In this document: piece by piece, positions 15,735 to 63,482 of the stretch
How the letters are laid out: each line of letters opens with the position of its first letter
How positions within the stretch are numbered: the first letter of the stretch is position 1
DNA from: Allodiplogaster sudhausi
Taxonomy: Eukaryota > Nematoda > Chromadorea > Rhabditida > Diplogasteridae
Direction of reading: 5' to 3'
Assembly (NCBI GenBank): GCA_945643635.1
Contig: CALZFC010000001.1
Coordinates: forward strand, 6,136,001 to 6,200,000
DNA length: 64,000 nucleotides
Translations under genes and position numbers: made by a program
Notes under the pieces: generated by a model
What the model saw: only the letters and a program-made list of their open reading frames with translations
Databases searched by the model: none
What the model was told of the DNA's origin: nothing

Positions 15735-16867
15735 CAGTCCCGCCCAGGATCTTGGTACCAAGGACGCTTCGGACGATTCGGACGCTTCCAAATGCATCCT
15801 CGTTAATAACTTTTGTTCTAGAAAAAACTAAAATATTCTAAATGGTACATTAGTTTGCTTATAGAGTACGGATGCTACTGTTTAAAAATCTATGACTTTT
15901 TATCATTTGATAAGAAGTTATCAGTTTTTGCTACTAAAAAATTTCATTTCAAATATTTTTAAACGAAATTTCTCCTGTACCATTATTTTGTCTCTACACA
16001 CATCCCCAAATAATAAAATTAAAGATTGTATCATTGATAACGGAAATCGATAAATGAGAACTTATCACGCATGTTCATATGATGTAAAGATTCGCCTTAC
16101 GATTCTGAATCTAATTCTGTAATCAGTTTTCGACAGAAGGTGCCGGTTAACAATATATTTTTGATTGTGTGTACTTTACAAGACTTTCTTCAGAAAGAAC
16201 AGGGCAGGAAGGCCTTGCAGGCCGAGGGGGCGGGGCCTAACCCTTTTTTTCTCTGCCTGTGCTATTTCGCTACCTCAAACTTGGGTAATTAAACCGTAGA
16301 CGAAAAAGGAGCGCGCAATATTTCTGAGTATCAATGCTAGCGCAGCAACCTAGATTTGGACGCATCATACCGGGCCAAAATTTTGACAAAGACCAAGAAA
16401 ATGGGGAATCCTGAAGAAAGGCTTGCAAAGTACACACAATCAAAAATGTTGTTAACCGGCACTTTCTGTTGAAAACTGATTACAGAATTAGATTCAGAAT
16501 CGTAAGGCGAATCTTTACATCATATGAACATGCGTGATAAGGTCTCATTTATCGATTTCCGTTATCAATGATACAATCTTTAATTTTATTATTTGGGGAT
16601 GTGTGTAGAGACAAAATAATGGTACAGGAGAAATTTCTTTTAAAAATATTTGAAATGAAATTTTTTAGTAGCAAAAACTGATAACTTCTTATCAAATGAT
16701 AAAAAGTTATCGATTTTTTAACAGTAGCATCCGTACTCTATAAGCAAACTAATGTACCATTTAGAATATTTTAGTTTTTCCTAGAACAAACGTTATTAAC
16801 GAGGATGCATTTGGAAGCGTCCGAATCGTCCGAAGCGTCCTTGGTACCAAGATCCTGGGCGGGACTG
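15735..16867. mobile_element. Tc1/mariner-type foldback MITE with ~450-bp inverted repeats
   Basis: The ends are CAGTCCCGCCCAGGATCTTG.. and its mirror ..CCTGGGCGGGACTG, flanked by TA on both sides (15733-15734 and 16868-16869). The CAGT terminus and TA target fit the Tc1/mariner superfamily. The arms (about 15735-16190 and 16410-16867) are almost identical inverted copies. The unique centre is about 215 bp and encodes no transposase. It holds an exact reverse-strand SL1 at 16274-16295. It lies about 60 bp upstream of the A4 start, where it may separate the gene from its 5' block. Confidence 0.85.
16274..16295 (-). other. Exact 22-nt SL1 spliced-leader sequence inside the MITE
   Basis: The minus strand reads GGTTTAATTACC followed by CAAGTTTGAG, identical over all 22 nt to nematode SL1. 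It is followed by GTAGCG, so a GT is present as in an SL RNA gene. However, the downstream bases do not resemble the rest of the SL RNA, and no clear Sm site (AATTTTTGG type) follows within 100 nt. It could be a decayed or divergent SL RNA gene, or a leader captured from a trans-spliced transcript. Confidence 0.85.
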
Positions 16868-26858: not shown

Positions 26859-27198
26859 TGTCGGCAAGTGCCGAGTATAGGAAGTTCTTTTCCCCCATCC
26901 TACTAATGAATCATTCCTCCGCTTCATCTATTTTTGGTAAAGGAAAAGAATTCTAGATGAGTTGTTTTTCACCCTTCTCTTCTGCCAGACATATGAAAAG
27001 GTCTATATGAATCACCATCTCCTCCTCTTTCCTTGATAATGTGATAGAAGACAGAATGTCTGGAATGCTTTCTATCGTGCTTTAAAAGGAGAAGTCAAGC
27101 ACTTATTATTCATTTTACTCTCTTCATTTCGATTTTATGTTTGAGATGAACGGTTTAATTACCCAAGTTTGAGGGACAATAAAGGCTTGCTCGCAACA
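26859..27198 (+). repeat. Left LTR
   Basis: TG..CA ended. It holds SL1 at LTR positions 294-315 and an AATAAA polyadenylation signal at 27178-27183, 15 bp before the LTR end. Confidence 0.92.
27152..27173 (+). other. Exact SL1 sequence in left LTR
   Basis: The sense strand reads GGTTTAATTACC followed by CAAGTTTGAG, identical to the 22-nt nematode SL1. The next bases are GGACAATAAAGG, not a GT donor, so this is the leader as it would appear in a spliced RNA rather than an SL RNA gene. Confidence 0.92.
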
Positions 27199-27259
27199 AC
27201 TGGTGCGTCGGCACGCGTGAATCCTGGAGCGCCAAGTCAGAGACACAGCTGTTCCAGCA

Positions 27260-28620
27260 ATGTCAAAAACAATCTTGTCCAACGTGGACTCGCTGCTGCA
27301 AAAACTCAAAAAGAAACTCAACGATGCAGAGGCAATCGACTTCGACAACGATTCAATCAGTCAGTCAGAGATCGACTCTCTCGCAAAGGTAACAACTTCT
27401 TCACTCGCTTCGATACAAGTTCTACGTGAACAGCTCTTGTCAGATGAAGAGAGGATAATCGAGAGCAAGGTCTTCTCGATTGGCCTTCGGCAAGAAGACG
27501 GCTCTATTCTTGAGATGACCGTCAAGAGCACTCCGACAATCGTTGGAGCAGTGCGCGCAATCACGGAGCAACAGTTCCAACAGCAGCAACCTAAAGGAGT
27601 GTACACGAAGCCAACTCTCCTAATCGGATCAGATTACTTCTGGTCGATCATTCGTCACAAAGACAAAACCCTCCCTTCCGGCTTGTCTTTGATCGACACA
27701 ACTCTTGGACAGATCGCAACTGGATCCGCAGTAGTTGCAGCAGCGTTCCAAGATGATGCAATCACCATTGCCATCGCGAAAGAAGACAAGGTGAAAGAAG
27801 AAATTCTCAAGACCATGCATTCTCTAGATTGTCTGGGCATCACAGACAGCCATTTCGAAAAGGACGACGAAACCGCTGTGACGCTGTTCGAAGACAGCGT
27901 GACAATCTCGACTGAGCCCGGAGAAGAAGGCCGTATCTATGTTGGATGGCCGTGGAAGGAGAAGCACCCGAATCGCCCAACAAATCGAGGAATATGCTTC
28001 GGAAGGCTCAAATCTACCATGAAGAACCTCACTGAGCAAGCACGCCTCGAGATGTACGACGAAGTCATCAAAGAACAACTCCGCTCCGACGTCATTGAAG
28101 AGGTGCCCAAGGAACCTCCTTCTGACGGACGACCCATTCACTACTTGCCACACCACGGAGTGTACAATCCAGCCAAGAAGACAACCAAGCTTCGGATTGT
28201 CTATGATGCTTCATGTGGACCACAGAGAAGATCACTGAACGACATGATCTATTCCGGCCCCAAGATGATTTCCAATCTCGTTGGAATGCTCCTAAGAATG
28301 CGCTGCCACCAGTTCATCATCACAGCAGACATCAAGAAGGCCTTCCTGCAGCTCGGTCTGATCGAAAGGGATCGAGATGCCACTCGCTTTCTCTGGCTCC
28401 GTAACCCACTCGAGTGCGTCACTGAAGAAAACATAGTCGAGTACCGCTTCAAGCGGGTCCTCTTTGGCGTCATCGCCTCGCCCTTTTTGTTAGCAGCGTC
28501 CGTCGATCATCACCTGAGCAAACAGAACTGCCAACTCGCAGAAGAACTCAAGAACAGCATTTATGCTGACAACTTCATGATGTGTGCAGACAGTGAGGAG
28601 GAAGCAAGACGGAAAGGCGA
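27260..28620 (+). pseudogene. BEL gag-protease remnant and reverse transcriptase, first frame
   Basis: The frame starts MSKTILSNVDSLLQKLKKK (gag-like N terminus). After about 70 residues it jumps into the region downstream of the aspartic protease (KPTLLIGSDYFW), so most of gag and the protease are deleted. The reverse transcriptase follows: LRIVYDASC, DIKKAFLQLGL, YRFKRVLFGVIASPFLL and the active-site box IYADNFM. A Y-x-D-N box in place of YxDD is usual for this superfamily. The frame is lost near 28600-28625. Confidence 0.85.
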
Positions 28621-29603
28621 AGGAACTACTAGCTTCAGCACAAATGACATTGCGCGAATTCACAAGCAATAATGCTGCAATCCACGAAGAGTTCGCAGAC
28701 GAGCCGACAGAGAAAATAACGAAGTTCTTAGGTCTCATATGGAACACTGAAAAGGATCTTCTCTCGATCAAGACCGGCCAAAAGAGAGGTGAAGTACAGA
28801 CGAAAACGACAGTGAGCGCTGAACTTGCTGCCGGTTTCGACCCGCTAGGCCTCATCAGTCCTGCAGTCCTTCCTGCTCGACTATTCTTACAGAAGATCAG
28901 CAAAAAATACGACTGGAAAACAGCACTGGACGGCGAAGACCAACTTGAATGGCAACAGATCTCAGGAGAACTCCTGGAACGCCAGATGTCCATCAAAAGG
29001 CAAGTAATCGTCAACAGCTCCACAGAACTTCACTCCTTCTGCGATGCCAGTGGTAATGGCCTCGGAGTAGTAGTTTATCTCCGAACTACGACAGAAGGTG
29101 GAATTCACGCGGTGCCTGTGCTTGCAAAATCCAGAGTTGTCCCATCCTCAGAAAAAGACAAGGAAGAGAAGGTCACGATTCCATGTTTGGAACTAACGGC
29201 AGCACAGATTGGAGCCAAACTTCTATCCTTCACAAAAAAGGAGCTCAGAATCCAGCCGAAGCGAACGATCTTTTGGACAGACAGCCGATGTGTGCTCGCG
29301 TGGCTGAAGAACGAAAAGCTGGAAAAGCTGCCTCGTTACGTCGGAAACCGAGTGAACTCAATTCTAGAAGAGAAAATCGAGCAAATGAGATTCGTGCCGA
29401 CCAAAGAAAATCCCGCAGACATCGCATCTCGAGGAGTCCCTTTCGACGAGCTCCAGACATCTCAACTCTGGTGGAATGGACCAAGATGGCTCACAGTGGA
29501 GGAATCCGAATGGCCAGAAGCACCTCCTGTCAAGAAGACAACCAGAATGATGAAGAGATCCATCTCCAGACAGCTGCCGTCACATCGAGCACCTCCAAAC
29601 TGA
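28584..29603 (+). pseudogene. BEL reverse transcriptase end and RNase H, second frame
   Basis: This continues the polyprotein in another frame: KFLGLIWNTEKD, FDPLGLISPAVLPARLFLQK, then RNase H with LHSFCDASGNGLGVVVYL (catalytic D) and TIFWTDSRCVLAWL, ending with NPADIASRGV and LWWNGPRWL. The frame is lost again near 29540-29600. Confidence 0.85.
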
Positions 29604-30078
29604 AGCTGTCGCCTATCTCAATCAACACGGAAAGGTTCAGCAGCCTCAGCAGGCTCCTCAATGCCACTTCTCAAGTCATCCGCTTCGCAGCTCTCATGAT
29701 GAAGACTATTAACAAGTCTCCCCAGACAAGATGGCTTCAAGTCGCGACAACCTCAGCAACTCCGAGTGCTGATGAGCGAAACAACGCTCTTCGCCTCCTT
29801 CTCATGCAATGCGCTTACGATCATCCTCCAGACAAAGATTTGAAAACGAATCTAGACCTTCAAGAGAAAGATGGAATCTGGACGTGCCAAGGTCGCCTCG
29901 GCAATTGCGAACTGCCAGCGAGAACACGCCACCCGTGGTTTGTTAACGCGAAGTCACCCTTGGCGCGAGTCCTCATTCTCGACGCACACGTGCGCAGTGC
30001 ACACAGCAACTCCGCAAATACGGTCGCAACTCTCCGACAGAACTTCTGGATCAACCGAGCAAAGCAGTTGAGGCCAGC
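29550..30078 (+). pseudogene. BEL integrase N-terminal part, third frame
   Basis: This contains the linker and zinc-binding region: RLLLMQCAYDHP, PWFVNAKSPLARVLILDAHV, then HSNSANTVATLRQNFWI. It ends at TGA (30080-30082), and the matching CxxC continues in the next frame (SSCNSCRKRK), so there is a third frameshift near 30070. Confidence 0.8.
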
Positions 30079-33000
30079 GTGATCAGCTCATGCAATAGCT
30101 GTCGAAAGCGAAAGGTGACCCCTTTTGCTGCTCCACAGATGGCTCCACTGCCTCCGGAAAGAGTCATCCGTTCGCCCGCTTTCTCCTCCACTGGACTCGA
30201 CTACTTCGGCCCTCTCTCAACCATCAGAAATGGTCAACCACTATCGCAATGGGTGGCACTCTTCACGTGCACCGCGACTCGTGCAATTCACCTGGAAGTA
30301 GTCAATGATCTGTCTGCAGCAAGTGCCATCAACGCAATCAAGCGATTCATCGCAAGACGAGGGAAACCTGTGAAGATCATCACGGACAATGCCACCTGCT
30401 TCACACTCGCCCAGAAAGCGTGCGCTGAGGCCATCGGAGACCTGAAATGGCAATTCATTCCTCCGAGATCGCCTTGGCAGGGTGGGTTCTATGAGAGGAT
30501 GGTGAAGGAAGTGAAAGTATGCCTCCGCTCCACAGCCGGCAAGAAGAAGATCGAAGCAGATGAACTCCAAACTCTGATGGCAGGAATTGAAGCCATTCTC
30601 AACAATCGCCCACTCATTCAAACGGGTGACGACGGTGAAGTCCTTCGCCCACAAGATCTTCTGCAGCCTCTGGTGAACACGACGCTGCACTCCTTCGAAT
30701 TCGATGACTACGACGAGGACCAACCGAAACACAAACTACTAGAAGCATGGGAAGCGACGAATGAACTACTCGAAAAGTTCTGGGACATCTGGACCCGGCA
30801 TTATATCCCTGCATTGCGAGAACGGCATCAACAAATCATGAAGCAGAATCGTAGTCGAACCAACAGAGCTCCAACGATTGGCGAAGTCGTGATGGTCGTC
30901 GATGAACTCAAGAAGAGAGACGACTGGCCACTCGGAAGAATCGTCAAACTACACGAAGGAACAGACGGAAACATCCGCACAGCTACAGTGAGAATGAAAA
31001 ACAGGCGTGAGTTGAAGCGAAGCGTCACGCATCTTCTCGCACTTGAAGGAGAAGGAGATACGCTGCCAGCAGAAGTTACAGAAGAGGCAACCGATACGAC
31101 AGTTGATGCCGCCGATGCAGTTGACAAAAGGGCACAAGAAAAGAATCAACTAGAAGGTACGAGCAAGAACACGACTCAACGACGCTATAACCTCAGGTCA
31201 ATCGCGAAACAAGCTGTGGCGAGCATGTTTCTCATCCTGATCTTTGGAAACGGGACACTCGCTAGCCGATGCCCTAACGACAAGGCACCACTCGGATCAC
31301 AACTCTACTTCTTGGAAGAGTGCCAGGAGTACGGTGTCGCTGCCTTCAAGAAGCCCGACGGCTCACTCTGTCACTTGTCCCGAGAATGTCCTGGAAACGC
31401 CCTGCGTAGCGAATCTGGAGACCTTTGTGGCCCTCAATGCAGTTGTGAAGAATGGGCAAGTGGATGCTCTCACTACCAAGGCATGTTCACACACAACTCA
31501 TCCAGCAAGAATGAGAAAACCAAAGCAATCCTCGCAGATATGAAGCCAATCTACTGCTCTTGGCACCCGAATCCAAATTGCAGCAAGGATGAACTCCAAA
31601 TTGACGTCTCTCAAGTTATGTTATTCGATAACTCATATTACCCTCTGAAGGAGATGAACATCAAGTTTACCGAGTTCGATCGAGCACACTGCAAGGGACA
31701 AGGAGCCAAGACTGGAACATCCGAATACTGCACTCGCTTTAATTGCACAGAGAACGGAACTGCTTTCTGTTTCCTCCCGAAACAGCCGATAGCTCTTCTC
31801 GTCACCAAACAAGGAAATATCGCAATAAAGCAGTGGGGCTCGGTGTCAAGAACAGTCTACGGCTTCAAGAAGGAGAAAGAAGAGTGTACCACATGCTCAA
31901 TCTCCTGCTCAAACGAAGGAATTTCTGCAACCAGTGATGGTGTTCGACTGATAGCCGTACAAATGGAGAAGTACTGGACAATGGTCGAGCATCCCACGCA
32001 GCAGCAAGAAGTGCGCTTCCCGCATTCAGTGATTGCTATTCCGTACAACGTGAACGTGAAGATGCACAAAGGCAGCACTGTTGTCTTTGACAAGGACATT
32101 CACTGTGAAGCCAGAAACGTCTGCGAAAACATTACATGCACACTCTGCTGGGAAGCCATCATCCACCTCCAATGCTATTCGAAATGGATGATCGCCCTAC
32201 TCATGGCCGCCGCATACATCCTCCTATCACTAGCCGTCATGCTTCTGAGTGCCAGCCGATGCATTTGTAAGGCGCTTAAAGGAGGCGCCAACTCTGCCCG
32301 CCTAGCCAGAAGAAGCATCATCACAGTCGGGAGGGCCGTCGCGAGCTGCATCGGAAAATGCATCCCGAAAAGGAAACGCCATAAGGAATCTCGAATCCGT
32401 CTTGTCAGCCTCAAGAAGCGGAAAGAAGCAGTCCCGCTATTAGCTCTAGCTGTGATTCTATCAATCTTTACTCCAGCTTCAGCGTGCGACCAAACAATCA
32501 TCATCACCACCACCGAGGACTTATGTCAAATCCAAGACGACAAGACAGTGATTTGCACATCCATTGATGTAGCCAACTTCAACGGATCTGCAACAGGTGT
32601 AATAACCTGTCTCCAATTGAAGGACGAAAATGGCAATCCTGCAGCCTCAATCCAAATACAAGTCGAACAGATCGCTAACAAATGCGAAAAGCAGTTCAAA
32701 TTCGCCACAAGAGCCTTCGAGATCGAGACAACATCAGTGAAGAGGTGCGCTGGATCTGGAAGCTGTCAAGAAAATCGGTGTGCTATTATGGCAACCGATG
32801 AGGAGATAACTGAACTCGGGTATGTGAACAGATTCCCTGGAGTTTCTGGTTGTCTTGGAAGTTCCGGGTGTCTCTGGAACGGCTGCCTTTCTTGCAACAG
32901 CGCATGCACCTTCTTCAAATCAGTAGGAAGACCAACAGATAATCGACTATATGAAGTCTTTCACTGCTCCAGCTACCTGCCTGTCGTGACAATCAGCATC

Positions 33001-33894
33001 GAATTTTCAACCAACAACGAAACAGAGAAGCAGTTCTTCAAAATGTCACCAGGAATGCTGACAACCATGAAAGGAATCCAAGTGAAGATGAACTACGTCA
33101 TCGAACCGCCCATGCCAGCCTTGACGACAACCTTCGTATCAGACGGAGAAGTGGTGGCTCTACTGACGCCTGAGGAAGAAAGAGAAGCATCAGTCTTCCC
33201 ATGCAACTCCTCAGATCTCAGCCAGTGCCAATTCAGAAAGGAAGCTTGTCAGTGCAAATTAGCTGACGACGAATTAGTCAAGTGTGCCTGCGCAAATGGA
33301 CAAGCAACCGCAAATGCAATTCGAAGATGCACACTTCCACAACGGCAAGGTTCAGTCTGGTTTGAAGCAGAAGGCAGTTCGGTATCTGTGGCACAGCCGA
33401 CCGCAGTTGCCGATCTTTCGATTAGAATCCAGGACTTGGAGCTCGCTCAGATCGAGTCGCATGCGAAATGCATGATGGATTCAACAAGCATGGTCGGCTG
33501 TCATAGCTGTAGTGCTGGGGCAACGCTGACGTACGTCTGCACCTCTACTCCCCATGCAGCTATCGGCCACCTGAACTGCGATTCAGGAAAAGCCCTCTCT
33601 GTGAAGTGCACGCCCGAAGCCATTACGAGGATGACTACCTTCACTTCTTCCACCTCTGAAGTTCAAGAGAACTGCCAACTAAGCTGTGGTCGCGAACAAA
33701 TCAAAGTCAAGATCAATGGAACTCTCAAGACAATCTTCGATGTAAGCGAACAAAAAAGCAACACTCAGTTCGGCCTCATCATTGCCACTCGAAATAATAT
33801 ATTGGCCCTCCTTGCAGATCATATGTCCTATTCTATTGTTCTAATAGCATCATCAATCATGGTCATTTTCTTCGTCTGCAAAATCTGTATGTAG
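30079..33894 (+). CDS. BEL integrase core fused in frame to phlebovirus-like envelope
   Basis: 1271 aa, uninterrupted. Residues 1-380: integrase with CNSCRKRK, STGLDYFGPL (first D), KIITDNATCF (second D), PWQGGFYERMVKEVK (E) and the usual BEL C-terminal part. From about residue 385 a hydrophobic signal (MFLILIFGNGTLAS) starts an envelope precursor. A cysteine-rich first subunit ends in a membrane span near residue 705 (MIALLMAAAYILLSLAVML). A second signal-like segment (VPLLALAVILSIFTPASAC) precedes a cysteine-rich second subunit with a C-terminal membrane span (VLIASSIMVIFFVCK). The two-subunit layout is that of bunyaviral Gn/Gc and nematode BEL envelopes. Upstream frameshifts mean it is not translated as part of a normal polyprotein in this copy. 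Confidence 0.85.
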   Translation: MISSCNSCRKRKVTPFAAPQMAPLPPERVIRSPAFSSTGLDYFGPLSTIRNGQPLSQWVALFTCTATRAIHLEVVNDLSAASAINAIKRFIARRGKPVKIITDNATCFTLAQKACAEAIGDLKWQFIPPRSPWQGGFYERMVKEVKVCLRSTAGKKKIEADELQTLMAGIEAILNNRPLIQTGDDGEVLRPQDLLQPLVNTTLHSFEFDDYDEDQPKHKLLEAWEATNELLEKFWDIWTRHYIPALRERHQQIMKQNRSRTNRAPTIGEVVMVVDELKKRDDWPLGRIVKLHEGTDGNIRTATVRMKNRRELKRSVTHLLALEGEGDTLPAEVTEEATDTTVDAADAVDKRAQEKNQLEGTSKNTTQRRYNLRSIAKQAVASMFLILIFGNGTLASRCPNDKAPLGSQLYFLEECQEYGVAAFKKPDGSLCHLSRECPGNALRSESGDLCGPQCSCEEWASGCSHYQGMFTHNSSSKNEKTKAILADMKPIYCSWHPNPNCSKDELQIDVSQVMLFDNSYYPLKEMNIKFTEFDRAHCKGQGAKTGTSEYCTRFNCTENGTAFCFLPKQPIALLVTKQGNIAIKQWGSVSRTVYGFKKEKEECTTCSISCSNEGISATSDGVRLIAVQMEKYWTMVEHPTQQQEVRFPHSVIAIPYNVNVKMHKGSTVVFDKDIHCEARNVCENITCTLCWEAIIHLQCYSKWMIALLMAAAYILLSLAVMLLSASRCICKALKGGANSARLARRSIITVGRAVASCIGKCIPKRKRHKESRIRLVSLKKRKEAVPLLALAVILSIFTPASACDQTIIITTTEDLCQIQDDKTVICTSIDVANFNGSATGVITCLQLKDENGNPAASIQIQVEQIANKCEKQFKFATRAFEIETTSVKRCAGSGSCQENRCAIMATDEEITELGYVNRFPGVSGCLGSSGCLWNGCLSCNSACTFFKSVGRPTDNRLYEVFHCSSYLPVVTISIEFSTNNETEKQFFKMSPGMLTTMKGIQVKMNYVIEPPMPALTTTFVSDGEVVALLTPEEEREASVFPCNSSDLSQCQFRKEACQCKLADDELVKCACANGQATANAIRRCTLPQRQGSVWFEAEGSSVSVAQPTAVADLSIRIQDLELAQIESHAKCMMDSTSMVGCHSCSAGATLTYVCTSTPHAAIGHLNCDSGKALSVKCTPEAITRMTTFTSSTSEVQENCQLSCGREQIKVKINGTLKTIFDVSEQKSNTQFGLIIATRNNILALLADHMSYSIVLIASSIMVIFFVCKICM

Positions 33895-33926: not shown

Positions 33927-34266
33927 TGTCGGCAAGTGCCGAGTATAGGAAGTTCTTTTCCCCCATCCTACTAATGAATCATTCCTCCGCTTCATCTATT
34001 TTTGGTAAAGGAAAAGAATTCTAGATGAGTTGTTTTTCACCCTTCTCTTCTGCCAGACATATGAAAAGGTCTATATGAATCACCATCTCCTCCTCTTTCC
34101 TTGATATTGTGATAGAAGACAGAATGTCTGGAATGCTTTCTATCGTGCTTTAAAAGGAGAAGTCAAGCACTTATTATTCATTTTACTCTCTTCATTTCGA
34201 TTTTATGTTTGAGATGAACGGTTTAATTACCCAAGTTTGAGGGACAATAAAGGCTTGCTCGCAACA
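33927..34266 (+). repeat. Right LTR
   Basis: 340 bp, matching the left LTR except for one base by my reading. The stretch before it (TTTCCTCTCCCCCAG) is pyrimidine-rich, not the expected polypurine tract. Confidence 0.92.
34220..34241 (+). other. Exact SL1 sequence in right LTR
   Basis: Identical to the copy at 27152-27173, followed by GGACAATAAAGG. Confidence 0.92.
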
Positions 34267-60438: not shown

Positions 60439-61638
60439 GAACAGGAGAGAAACAGAGAGTGAGAGAGAGAGAAAGAAATTAACAGATAAAAGCAAATTGA
60501 TCGCATTCAAGACTTACTAATTGTCATGTCCCTCCCTAGTGGACTAGCTAGTTAATAAGTCAGTGAATGCGTTCAACCATTGCATCCATCTTTTTTTATC
60601 TTCAAAGTGGCTTCAGAGAAAAAAGAAAGAAGAAATACGAATGGCAAAGAAGAAGAAGAATGAACGTCATCATAGTTAGTCATTTTGACTAAAAAAAATG
60701 GGAAAGAAAAGATCTTCTTATTAGTAGCCAACTGAGCGCATCATCGGAATGGTTCGCCGCCATATGTGGGAATGTATGAGAGGAGGGGTGAGGGGGTTGG
60801 TCCGCTCGATAGGTCGGGTCACGCGAAGAGAGAGAGAGAGAGAGAGAGTGAAAGAGCGAGAGAGAGAGGGAAAGAGAGGGAGAGGGATCATTGTGTGAGA
60901 GAGACCAGACGACGAGAGAGGATCTGGCTGGTTCGATCGGCAAATTGAGGTTAACAGCCACATTTGAATATCCGCGCCTTCCCTCATTCCATTCATCCTC
61001 AGCCCACCCTCTCCACCCTGACTGGATTTTTTTAGTAACACCAATAAGAATTTTTATTAACATTATGATCTTCAGATTTTTGCGTTAAGCCATTGAAACA
61101 AGATTCTTGTGCACGCGATCAAGGCTATGCTTCGAAGCATTCCCCAGAACTTTCGTGGTTGATGCAAAAATAAATAAATAAATAAATAGAAGGAACTGAT
61201 TATTTTTTATGAGAAGATTATTTTTTCCTTTATGCATAAAGCTTTGGGATCCAAGCAACAAAAATACGACGACATGTTGTTAGATCCGATGGAGGTATTG
61301 AACTCGTAAAAATAAGTGAGAAAACAATTAATCGTTCGGTCGCTCGAATACATTGTTTAAAGATTTGAATATTGATTATGTTTTTGTTTTTGGTTACTTT
61401 ATTTAGTCACATAATAAAATAATTAAAAAAAACTGAAAGTAAAAAAAATAATAAGTACATGAACAAAAAAATTAATAAATTCCAATAAACAACATTGTTC
61501 TTACACTAGTGAATTCATTCAACCAACCACTTTGAGCGATCAAACAATGTTCGTAAGGACATGAGAACACTCGTTGTCAGATTTAAAGAATAAAATGAAA
61601 AGTATGTATATGCATATAGGAACAATCTCCAAGTTAAA
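60327..61638. other. 5' flank of B2 and 3' flank of B3
   Basis: GA microsatellites at 60400-60470 and 60820-60890. 61255-61390 is the B-type 3' flank (GTTAGATCCGATGGAGGTAT.., TTAATCGTTCG..). No gene is supported. Confidence 0.6.
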
Positions 61639-63482
61639 TTAGTTGTCCTTGTTCATGTTCTTGTAGCCAACAATCATTTCTTTTCTGCAAGCAGCGACCA
61701 CGGCGACCTTGACGCGTCCGCCCTTCTCGAATGCGCTGCGGATCTGCTCGCCGAGTGGCCCCTCAGGCAGCCCGAATTCCCCCTCAGATACGTCGCCCGT
61801 CTCCGGGTGCTGGAGCGTGGCGAAGTCGTCGTCGATATCCACGAGCGTGTACTCCTTGCGCTTGACGATAGGGACATCCACGTTGTCTGCGGAGTCGCGG
61901 ATGTCCTCGACTGTCGAGCCGTCGAACATGTCGACTGCGATGAGATGCACCTTGGCGTGGCCTGACGCCTTGACGATCTTGACGATCTTGCATGGACGTC
62001 GCTCAATCATGACGCGATCGTTCTCGCGGAGTGCTGAGCATAGCTTCCGAAAGGTTTCCCCGACGCCAGACTGCGTGGCCACGACTTCGTCGTCGTGTCG
62101 CTTCTCTTCAGTAAGCATGCATTCTCGGCCTAGCGTTTGCTCGAGCTCGGCAATTCGCTCAAGATAACGTTTGTTGGCGACCGTTGAACGAGGAAGGGCC
62201 TGAACGTAACCGGTTTTTTTTCTCTCTCTCTCTCACACACCCTGCTTCTCTATTTCTCTGTCGTTCTGATTCTCTATTTGTCTCTCACCCTGCGTCTCTA
62301 TTTCTCTCTCACTCTATCTGTCTCTTTAACTTGTTTTTGCTCCGGAGATGCTTTCCCAATGTCCTCTCGCTATTCCGCAATTTCTTAGTTTGTTAAAAAG
62401 TATTTTCTAAAGAATTTTGTCTCGCTTTCTCTCTCTCTCTCTCTGATTCTGTCTCGCTCTATTTCTTATTCTCTTTTTTTTCAAACCTGTTTCAATAAGA
62501 GAGACGGCACCAGCTCAACTTCTTCGTGACTCTGCTCAAGCTGCCGAGCGAGTTCAGCCGGTTCGTCCTCGTTTACTTCTTGGAGCGCCTCGCTCAGCTG
62601 ACGCTCCAGCACGTTGAGCATTGTTTTAAAGGTGTAAGCATGGACGGTCATTCCTCCCACATATTTAACCGGCATGTCTGGTCTATACCACGGCTCAATA
62701 TTGTTGAAATCAGCGATGAGATCGGGCAGCTCTTTCCGCTGAAGTCGTTGCAGAGTCTCCTTGCCGGGTTTTCCGGCAATGATCTGAGACAGACACGAGT
62801 GCTCCGCGCGCAACTCGTTCATTGCCATCTCCACTAGATTTTTGTCTTTCACCATCTCAAAACACATGTTTTGCGCATGGTCGACTTCGGAATCGAAAAG
62901 GAACTGGTCCCTGTGGCGACCAGTTTTGAAGTCGTTCTTGATGCAGGGCTCAAAGATGAGCCCACTAACTTCGCCCAGTTTCTCACGACATTCGATGGCT
63001 GTCAACAGTTTGAGCTTCTGCTGATGAATGCGAAAGTCTCGCAGAGAGGCGAGTGTGTCGAGAAGTTCTTCGAACCTTTTCTCGGCCATCTTCCTTTTCT
63101 CGATCTTTTGCAGGAAGGCGGCGGCAGCGTCGGCGGCAGTTTGAAGCCGCTCGTGCGGTGCAAACCTCAGCAGTTTTCGCGCCGACTTTGCGGCCCTTTC
63201 GAGTTCGGCCAGGATGCACGCGTAGTTGTCGGGATGGAATGGAGTGCGCTCTGCACGGCGCAGCTTTTCCGCGTGCTCGAGCAGCGTCTCCAATTGATCT
63301 GCACGGAAACGAGCGTCTTCGTCCAGCTGATGGGCGTTGCGAAGTTTCTGGTCGGCGATCACGTAAGTCGCACGGTAGATCGATGGTGTGAATGTTGGTC
63401 GCCCGACCGCGCCAGCTTCTCTCGCGTAGTTGAAGCCGCTGTACTCCATATCATCATCATCATCGTAATCATCGTCGGACAT
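61639..63482 (-). CDS. B3: B-type family head fused to an eIF5A-like domain
   Basis: Exon 1 is 63482-62487 (332 codons): acidic start MSDDDYDDDDDMEYSG, then the helical head with HPDNYACILAELERAAKS, CLSQIIAGKPGKETLQRLQR and LPDLIADFNNIE. The donor is CAG/GTTTGA. The next open exon is 62199-61639 after GTTCAG, phase 0, so the join is in frame and gives 518 aa. It begins with the normal family exon-3 coil (ANKRYLERIAELEQTLGREC) but then continues into eIF5A: LCSALREND, RRPCKIV, GHAKVHLIAVDMFDG, NVDVPIVKRKEYTLVDIDDD, LPEGPLGEQI. eIF5A is a ribosome-bound elongation/termination factor needing hypusine on a loop lysine. Here the loop between CKIV and GHAK is four residues shorter and lacks the STSKTGKH motif. 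Exon 2 survives only as a remnant near 62330-62380. The tail exon is absent. Confidence 0.75.
62210..62480. repeat. TC-rich intron of B3 with exon-2 remnant
   Basis: The minus strand still shows EDIGKASPEQKQ (about 62332-62368), identical in character to the end of exon 2 in B1 and B2. The coil in front of it is gone and a TAG lies just upstream in frame. Confidence 0.6.

Follow-up and report, generated by a model that had tools for sequence, protein, structure and literature searches.

The minus strand of the window, the whole 64,000-nucleotide stretch of Allodiplogaster sudhausi DNA analysed here, contains a two-exon gene in which a coil protein runs into an eIF5A domain. Exon 1 (63482-62487) encodes a coil protein that is predicted to be all-helical and belongs to a tandem family, in 332 codons extending from an ATG to a phase-0 donor, CAG|gtttga, which by the usual consensus we take to be weak. 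A phase-0 GT-AG intron of 287 bases (62486-62200, gtttga...ttcag) separates it from exon 2 (62199-61639), a single open frame in phase with exon 1 that continues to a TAA. The start of exon 2 (62199-62098, ALPRSTVANKRYLERIAELEQTLGRECMLTEEKR) is coil-derived, matching the second coil exon of paralogues at 46516-46415 (71% identity, E 3e-12) and 59343-59242 (68%, E 1e-10). The remainder (62097-61639, TAA included) is an intronless eIF5A-derived part, identified through Pfam, PDB, an AF2 model, and alignments with the host's eIF5A genes and with a second chimera on another contig (C17). It exceeds the curated cut-offs of both eIF5A families (PF21485, E 1.4e-12; PF01287, E 1.9e-14), and its best match among PDB sequences is yeast eIF5A-2 (E 3e-32). 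The comparison with C17 shows that it begins earlier than is apparent, with HDDE (62097-62086) corresponding to the KHDDDHF of the eIF5A N-terminus. The original prediction of a coil exon running unbroken into an eIF5A homologue is therefore borne out by one frame with matches on both sides. The joined exons encode a predicted protein of 518 residues, with about 366 residues of helical coil ahead of the eIF5A domain, and are followed by a 3'UTR block (61638-61420) common to the C17 chimera at 78% identity. When 7993 candidates from a database of 5.8 billion proteins were scored, none passed as a match to this protein, and no report of a coil-eIF5A chimera was found among the titles and abstract openings listed from the literature searched, in which subscription journals are thinly covered. 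The intron also contains an apparent remnant of a middle coil exon (62368-62331, minus strand; GACATTGGGAAAGCATC...), which is longer in the copy at 59.6 kb and, if spliced in frame, could add an exon of 13 codons (REDIGKASPEQKQ).

Nine other stretches of the window match exon 1 at E 1e-3 or better; the lowest E-value belongs to 57698-56850 (45% identity). Coil exon 2 was compared between eight copies in the window, on the minus strand, and three on a further contig (C57), and the TTCAG at the intron acceptor of the fusion gene is common to seven other copies compared. In six of the eight copies the exon is continued by a shared tail with a GT donor, exemplified by the paralogue at 60296-59219 (minus strand), with an exon 1 piece (60296-60009), coil exon 2 (59343-59242), the tail GACCAGATTCGTCTGGT and the donor. 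This is the unfused state, which the C57 copies share, having the coil exon and donor, and no eIF5A. Tail and donor are absent from a copy at 19 kb and from the fusion gene, in which the eIF5A domain replaces the tail. Among 11 coil members, no two matched the same Pfam family, no PDB sequence matched the coil part below E 0.029, and Foldseek returned no match at E 0.001 or better. Exon 1 is plainly under purifying selection: 307 of 332 residues are identical between the window and C17, with 25.5 synonymous changes over 219 sites and 26.5 nonsynonymous changes over 777 (p 6e-6), giving a dN/dS of 0.28 (NG86) to 0.35 (maximum likelihood).

A PF01287 search of the assembly from which the window comes (352 Mb, 382 contigs) found four places: two ordinary eIF5A genes, on C49 and C112, and the two chimeras. 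The ordinary genes each have four coding exons and three introns (MADHDHDDDHFVAAESGAAATFPKQCSALRKNEHVMIKGRPCK|VVEMSTSKTGKHGHAK and so on). Their coding sequences differ at 11 of 489 bases, and the two loci share 91% identity over 2.95 kb; they are hence recent duplicates or haplotypes. A protein search of the assembly, with 35 of 35 candidates scored, found no third chimera, and the best other assembly match of the window's eIF5A domain reaches 55% over residues 31-186. The host also has SL1-like genes, at a minimum of 26 places (E up to 1e-3, among 50 of 60,808 candidates scored), all under the Rfam gathering score; one that was examined carries the standard leader GGTTTAATTACCCAAGTTTGAG followed by GT. 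Together with an exon that matches the Srj and Str chemoreceptor families, these genes mark the host as a nematode.

The C17 chimera preserves a more complete arrangement, consisting of a near-identical exon 1, coil exon 2, a GT-AG intron, and then an open eIF5A exon. This last exon begins within the 5'UTR of ordinary eIF5A (GGTAACCCGC), which is there translated in frame. The sequence shared with the ordinary genes reaches six bases further upstream, as CTTCAG|GGTAACCCGC in C17 versus CCTCAG in the ordinary genes, in which the directly preceding TTGCAG is taken to be a trans-splice acceptor. A separate feature of the C17 locus (C17:3334000-3343900, L005) is a GA-rich intron tandem array upstream of coil exon 2, with an 81-base period and about 13 regular copies by BLAST starts.

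A chimeric retrogene should have lost at least two parental introns, carry parts of the parental mRNA from outside the coding sequence, and be joined in frame to recruited exons. Firstly, neither chimera has any intron within its eIF5A part, against three in each of the C49 and C112 genes. Secondly, both chimeras carry parental sequence behind the coding region: the window's 3'UTR (61562-61514) matches the 3' region of C112 over 49 bases (90%, E 2e-14), and that of C17 matches the region behind the C112 gene over 48 bases (85%, E 4e-11), with no such match seen in the downstream bases of C49 that were examined. Thirdly, C17 retains the 5'UTR and, directly upstream of the common sequence, a 16 of 22 match to SL1, a score reached by 9 of 20,000 random window positions. 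Fourthly, at the level of sequence, the junctions in both copies are phase 0 and join the eIF5A part in frame to the coil exons. The lost introns, the UTR pieces on both sides and the leader relict together point to a retrocopy of a trans-spliced mRNA, which appears to be the only natural reading, the C17 copy likely deriving from one trans-spliced to SL1. This agrees with the earlier suggestion that a cDNA had been captured. Ten derived states, one of them a codon deletion, are common to the chimeras and distinguish them from the ordinary genes, and hence both most likely descend from one capture. Relative to C17, the window gene lacks the second intron and the 5'UTR, such that the coil's EEKR joins the HDDD-type N-terminus of eIF5A directly; it is because of this loss that eIF5A appears in the window as one unbroken exon.

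The 3' side of the insertion is less legible. A processed pseudogene would be expected to have a poly(A) tract and a target-site duplication. There is no target-site duplication in 61380-62140, and no poly(A) tract on the 3' side, where only A6 runs at 61226 and 61208 occur; both marks have possibly decayed. The exon-2 tail of the family has not been displaced but is absent, with eight matches elsewhere in the window (one with three mismatches) and none in 59.3-64 kb. Hence the insertion event cannot be read cleanly on this side. A simple insertion inside exon 2 of the window copy was ruled out, as the displaced tail was not found downstream, and is opposed also by C17, in which the retrocopy lies behind the following donor. 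Horizontal transfer of eIF5A was similarly ruled out, since the copies carry pieces of the host gene's UTRs; the window domain has 14 of 41 Ascaris-specific states.

eIF5A is described as one of the most strongly conserved proteins of eukaryotes and as the sole known carrier of hypusine, Lys50 being the modified residue in a loop that enters the active site of deoxyhypusine synthase (PMC10042821). In the window copy, the loop is reduced to CKIV-KIVKAS-GHAK, compared with CKIVEMSTSKTGKHGHAK, the remnant KIVKAS (61980-61963, minus strand) replacing EMSTSKTGKH with 12 fewer nucleotides, and hence four fewer residues, as originally noted. The motif SKTGKHG, for which the window copy has CKIVKIVKASGHAK, is present in all 60 aligned eIF5A proteins (from a set of 121 with identifiers, and one of the 60 being partial) and in both ordinary host genes, a difference far beyond chance. 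As SKTGKHG is missing, so is the part that enters the synthase. A functional eIF5A would have the loop STSKTGKHG with a modifiable lysine; both are gone from this copy, and the prediction that it is no ordinary eIF5A stands. In the alignment to the host's canonical genes, their three introns and loop are all missing from the window copy. The suggestion of a tandem KIV duplication fares less well. The repeat is literal (AAGATCGTC twice, 61989-61972), but relative to C17 the loop is explained also by point changes and one net 12-nucleotide in-frame deletion, and therefore no duplication is required. The C17 chimera still has its loop, with glutamate at the hypusine lysine (SKTGEHG). Hence the loss of the loop postdates the capture, and the hypusine lysine is gone from the two chimeras in different ways, replaced by glutamate in one and missing together with the loop in the other. 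A duplication of another kind occurs in an Ascaris suum eIF5A record (P0017), in which an 18-residue stretch of the hypusine loop is exactly repeated (VEMSTSKTGKHGHAKVHL twice); this is likely a cDNA assembly artefact.

The rest of the domain is predicted to fold. An AF2 model, built on an alignment of the 60 eIF5A proteins and therefore biased towards the eIF5A fold, gave block mean pLDDT values of 87-96 over residues 51-180. As envisaged when loop modelling was originally proposed, it shows what replaces the loop: strands 68-77 and 83-90 are linked by a short turn. The best Foldseek match to the model was a ribosome-bound eIF5A (E 1.2e-15), with the fungal protein HEX1 appearing from rank 38. 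The N-terminal SH3-like and C-terminal OB domains of a functional eIF5A are thus both recovered by Pfam, AF2 and Foldseek.

The absence of introns, the parental UTR pieces, the in-frame joins and the sister chimera are demonstrated, as is the fact that neither copy has a hypusine lysine. The best explanation is probably that this is a coil protein with a retrocopied tail of eIF5A fold, which can neither be hypusinated nor function as eIF5A. An SL1-trans-spliced eIF5A mRNA would have entered, by reverse transcription, the intron that follows the second coil exon, where the 5'UTR of the retrocopy could have been taken as a splice acceptor and translated, a state persisting on C17. The chimera locus would then have duplicated, and in the window copy one deletion would have fused the coil exon to the eIF5A N-terminus, and another removed the loop. 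The coil part, being under purifying selection, presumably retains the gene's original role, and the tail would have been kept open and folded, freed from the constraints of binding the ribosome and deoxyhypusine synthase. The tail most likely forms a folded end of the coil protein that is tolerated and perhaps put to new use, and the fusion is predicted to be unable to be hypusinated or to act on stalled ribosomes.

The principal alternative is that the eIF5A part is a drifting retro-pseudogene tail, carried in the coil transcript at most as dead weight, its frame open through luck or because premature stops are kept out of the coil mRNA. We consider this unlikely, although the substitution rates lend it weight. 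On a tree of C49, C112, C17 and the window copy, dN/dS was about 0.018 for the ordinary host genes, 0.117 on the branch between these and the chimeras (below 1, p 1.3e-4, with parental time included), and 0.30 on the C17 branch (p 0.057 versus 1). The window branch, at 0.61, could not be distinguished from 1 (p 0.18), and is far from the strong purifying selection of the ordinary genes that a functional eIF5A would experience. When the two chimeras are compared, the domain differs at 83 of 345 nonsynonymous and at 27 of 99 synonymous sites (p 0.51). At sites where C49 and C17 agree, the window copy has changed at 24 of 62 positions conserved in at least 90% of eIF5As, and at 19 of 53 others (p 0.85). 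As the window's dN/dS is not distinguishably below 1 and conserved residues are not spared, the eIF5A-type pattern of constraint has gone; 86 of 148 aligned residues remain unchanged from canonical eIF5A. The absence of stop codons is not decisive alone, since under neutrality the frame remained free of stops in 95 or 205 of 2000 simulations with 114 substitutions, using two base compositions, and in 35 or 115 of 2000 with 174.

Against drift stand four other properties of the domain. Firstly, the domains of the two chimeras are separated by 106 substitutions and three gaps (one representing a trimming end), with zero frameshifts, compared with 178 substitutions and 23 frameshifting gaps in their noncoding flanks (Fisher 4.8e-5); outside simple sequence, 20 frameshifting flank gaps remain (Fisher 1.6e-4). 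The flank rate predicts about 14 frameshifting gaps in the domain, and both chimeras are open, rather than disabled as a processed pseudogene would be. Secondly, the replacements private to the window copy are mild, with a mean BLOSUM62 score of 0.09 versus -0.51 under neutrality, a value matched by 4 or 5 of 1000 simulations, and by 1 to 15 of 1000 across eight settings with the loop in or out. Hydrophobic-to-polar changes among them numbered 3, against 4.7 to 6.9 expected, which is not significant (56 to 278 of 1000), and in C17 the replacements showed no significant mildness relative to neutrality (119 to 128 of 1000). Thirdly, fixing both chimera branches jointly at a dN/dS of 1 was rejected (p 0.022). 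Fourthly, GC content at third positions is 0.767 in the window copy versus 0.79 to 0.83 in C17 and the ordinary genes, a level retained under neutrality in 0 to 12 of 500 simulations at 114 or 174 substitutions, although at 80 substitutions it was retained in 0 or 70 of 500, depending on the starting sequence (70 from C112). Hence the original proviso that a dN/dS of about 1 would indicate decay is answered only in part: the window branch and the chimera-to-chimera counts are compatible with it, but the kept frame, mild replacements and joint test are not.

The rates themselves have to be read in the context of an uneven locus. Between 64000 and 60520, identity to C17 is patchy, at 95% for exon 1, 88-89% for the flanks, 76% for eIF5A and 78% for the 3'UTR; the corresponding divergences are 0.05 for exon 1, 0.12 upstream, 0.13 downstream (3'UTR included), 0.28 for the eIF5A part and 0.25 for its noncoding 3'UTR. 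Taken together, the eIF5A block is either older than its flanks or faster-evolving. This suggests ectopic gene conversion of the flanks as the simplest account, in which case dN cannot be scaled by the flanks, and conversion may also blur the history of the chimeras. Positive selection on the fast domain is not claimed: since synonymous sites and the 3'UTR are also fast, conversion of the flanks is as likely.

It is quite improbable that the fusion is instead a dominant-negative or regulatory eIF5A, occupying the ribosomal E site or deoxyhypusine synthase. The high-confidence predicted fold, which is closest to eIF5As and to a ribosome-bound structure first, would suit such a role, as would the removal of the hypusine site from both copies by different routes. 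However, the positive charge of the eIF5A N-domain is linked with binding of the synthase (PMC10042821), and the net charge of the window's N-domain is +1, against +5 in 55 of 58 eIF5As (one duplicated and one partial sequence being excluded), with its C-domain at -3 against -7 to -12 in 60 of 60. The charge pattern for binding the synthase is therefore weakened, in addition to the loss of the loop that would enter it. The coil residues preceding the domain, and the failure to spare conserved sites, also count against such a factor, and nothing was found in favour of a dominant-negative role specifically.

At least as improbable is a separate short mRNA, trans-spliced with the leader at the acceptor at 62200 and translated from an in-frame ATG (62118-62116) into a stand-alone eIF5A-like protein of 159 residues. 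This is a normal eIF5A length, the host has SL1 genes, and the acceptor is kept among the coil copies. However, coil copies without eIF5A have this acceptor too, and several of them the ATG as well, and hence both are features of the family; the extra intron in C17 moreover separates both from eIF5A. That an assembly error placed eIF5A beside the coil exon can be dismissed, as although the locus lies among simple repeats, no support for an error was found, the domain is in frame and identical to no other place in the assembly, and a second, diverged chimera, its exon 1 nearly the same, is present on another contig.

The coil protein with a retrocopied eIF5A tail has precedents in part. Chimeric retrogenes are described in Caenorhabditis, with type II, in which the retrocopy lies in the last exon, among five types, and trans-spliced transcripts are suggested to be reverse-transcribed (PMC3532220, 2012). 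As in the cases described there, an intronless copy of a multi-exon gene has recruited neighbouring exons and supplies the last exon; unlike those cases, the parent is eIF5A, C17 carries an SL1 relict, the modification site is gone from both copies, and the chimera has been duplicated. Dinoflagellate retrogenes, in which a relict spliced leader marks reverse transcription of a trans-spliced mRNA (PMC6050394), resemble C17 in retaining such a relict, although the leader in C17 is nematode SL1, degenerate, and inside an intron of the host gene. Compared with canonical eIF5A (PF21485 and PF01287; C49, C112), the window domain has both domains at nearly whole length, but has neither the hypusine loop nor introns, and follows a coil N-terminus. 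The SL1 relict hence offers a readable case of a trans-spliced mRNA turned into a new last exon in a nematode.

A second comparison is with HEX1, which itself is not known to have the hypusine lysine; the window copy likewise has an eIF5A-derived fold and no such lysine. A HEX1 protein would have a C-terminal peroxisome signal and its own domain arrangement. The fusion ends in NKDN, of which KDN is presumably no peroxisome signal, and Foldseek prefers eIF5A: among the best 50 Foldseek matches listed, TM by target was 0.76-0.94 for eIF5A versus 0.48-0.59 for HEX1. The window gene also differs from HEX1 in being animal, coil-fused and of retrocopy origin. HEX1/HexA of the fungal Woronin body (PDB 1khi) is suggested to have originated from a duplicated ancestral eIF5A gene, and represents an eIF5A-derived fold outside translation (PMC6371581). 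The animal case described here brings together a chimeric retrogene and HEX1-type reuse, with the further feature that the hypusine site has gone in two ways. That it might constitute an animal counterpart of HEX1, with a retro-captured eIF5A fold serving as a new non-translational structural or binding domain, its hypusine site discarded differently in each of the duplicated genes, is a tentative proposal that we regard as possible and somewhat doubtful. The natural pair of fused copies, in which the lysine was replaced in one and the loop removed in the other, offers a ready test of the abilities of the eIF5A fold without hypusine, and of the way in which an essential factor escapes its constraints.

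Several further observations concern other sequences. Records of Streptomyces plasmids (NZ_CP109263 and five others) match exon 2, and at least five Streptomyces records, those listed all being S. anulatus, contain a gene annotated as eif5A with 43.5% identity to exon-2 residues 49-129; judged on its sequence, this match is an eIF5A-like gene in bacteria. The window itself has a BEL/Pao-type element (27221-33891, plus strand) with Peptidase_A17 (E 9e-38), reverse transcriptase and DUF5641 domains, and an integrase core under its cut-off. Its last frame encodes phlebovirus-like glycoprotein domains (G2 fusion domain, E 1e-60; G1; G2 C-terminal), by which it would be classed as an envelope-bearing endogenous element. 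Three perfect 22-base copies of the SL1 leader occur in the window, at 27152-27173 and 34220-34241 on the plus strand and at 16274-16295 on the minus strand. The first two flank the BEL/Pao element and are each followed by the same 25 bases (GGACAATAAAGGCTTGCTCGCAACA), and hence the leader seemingly lies within the element's terminal repeats. Behind the third copy comes GT, the pattern of an SL gene, although an Rfam scan of the window reported none.
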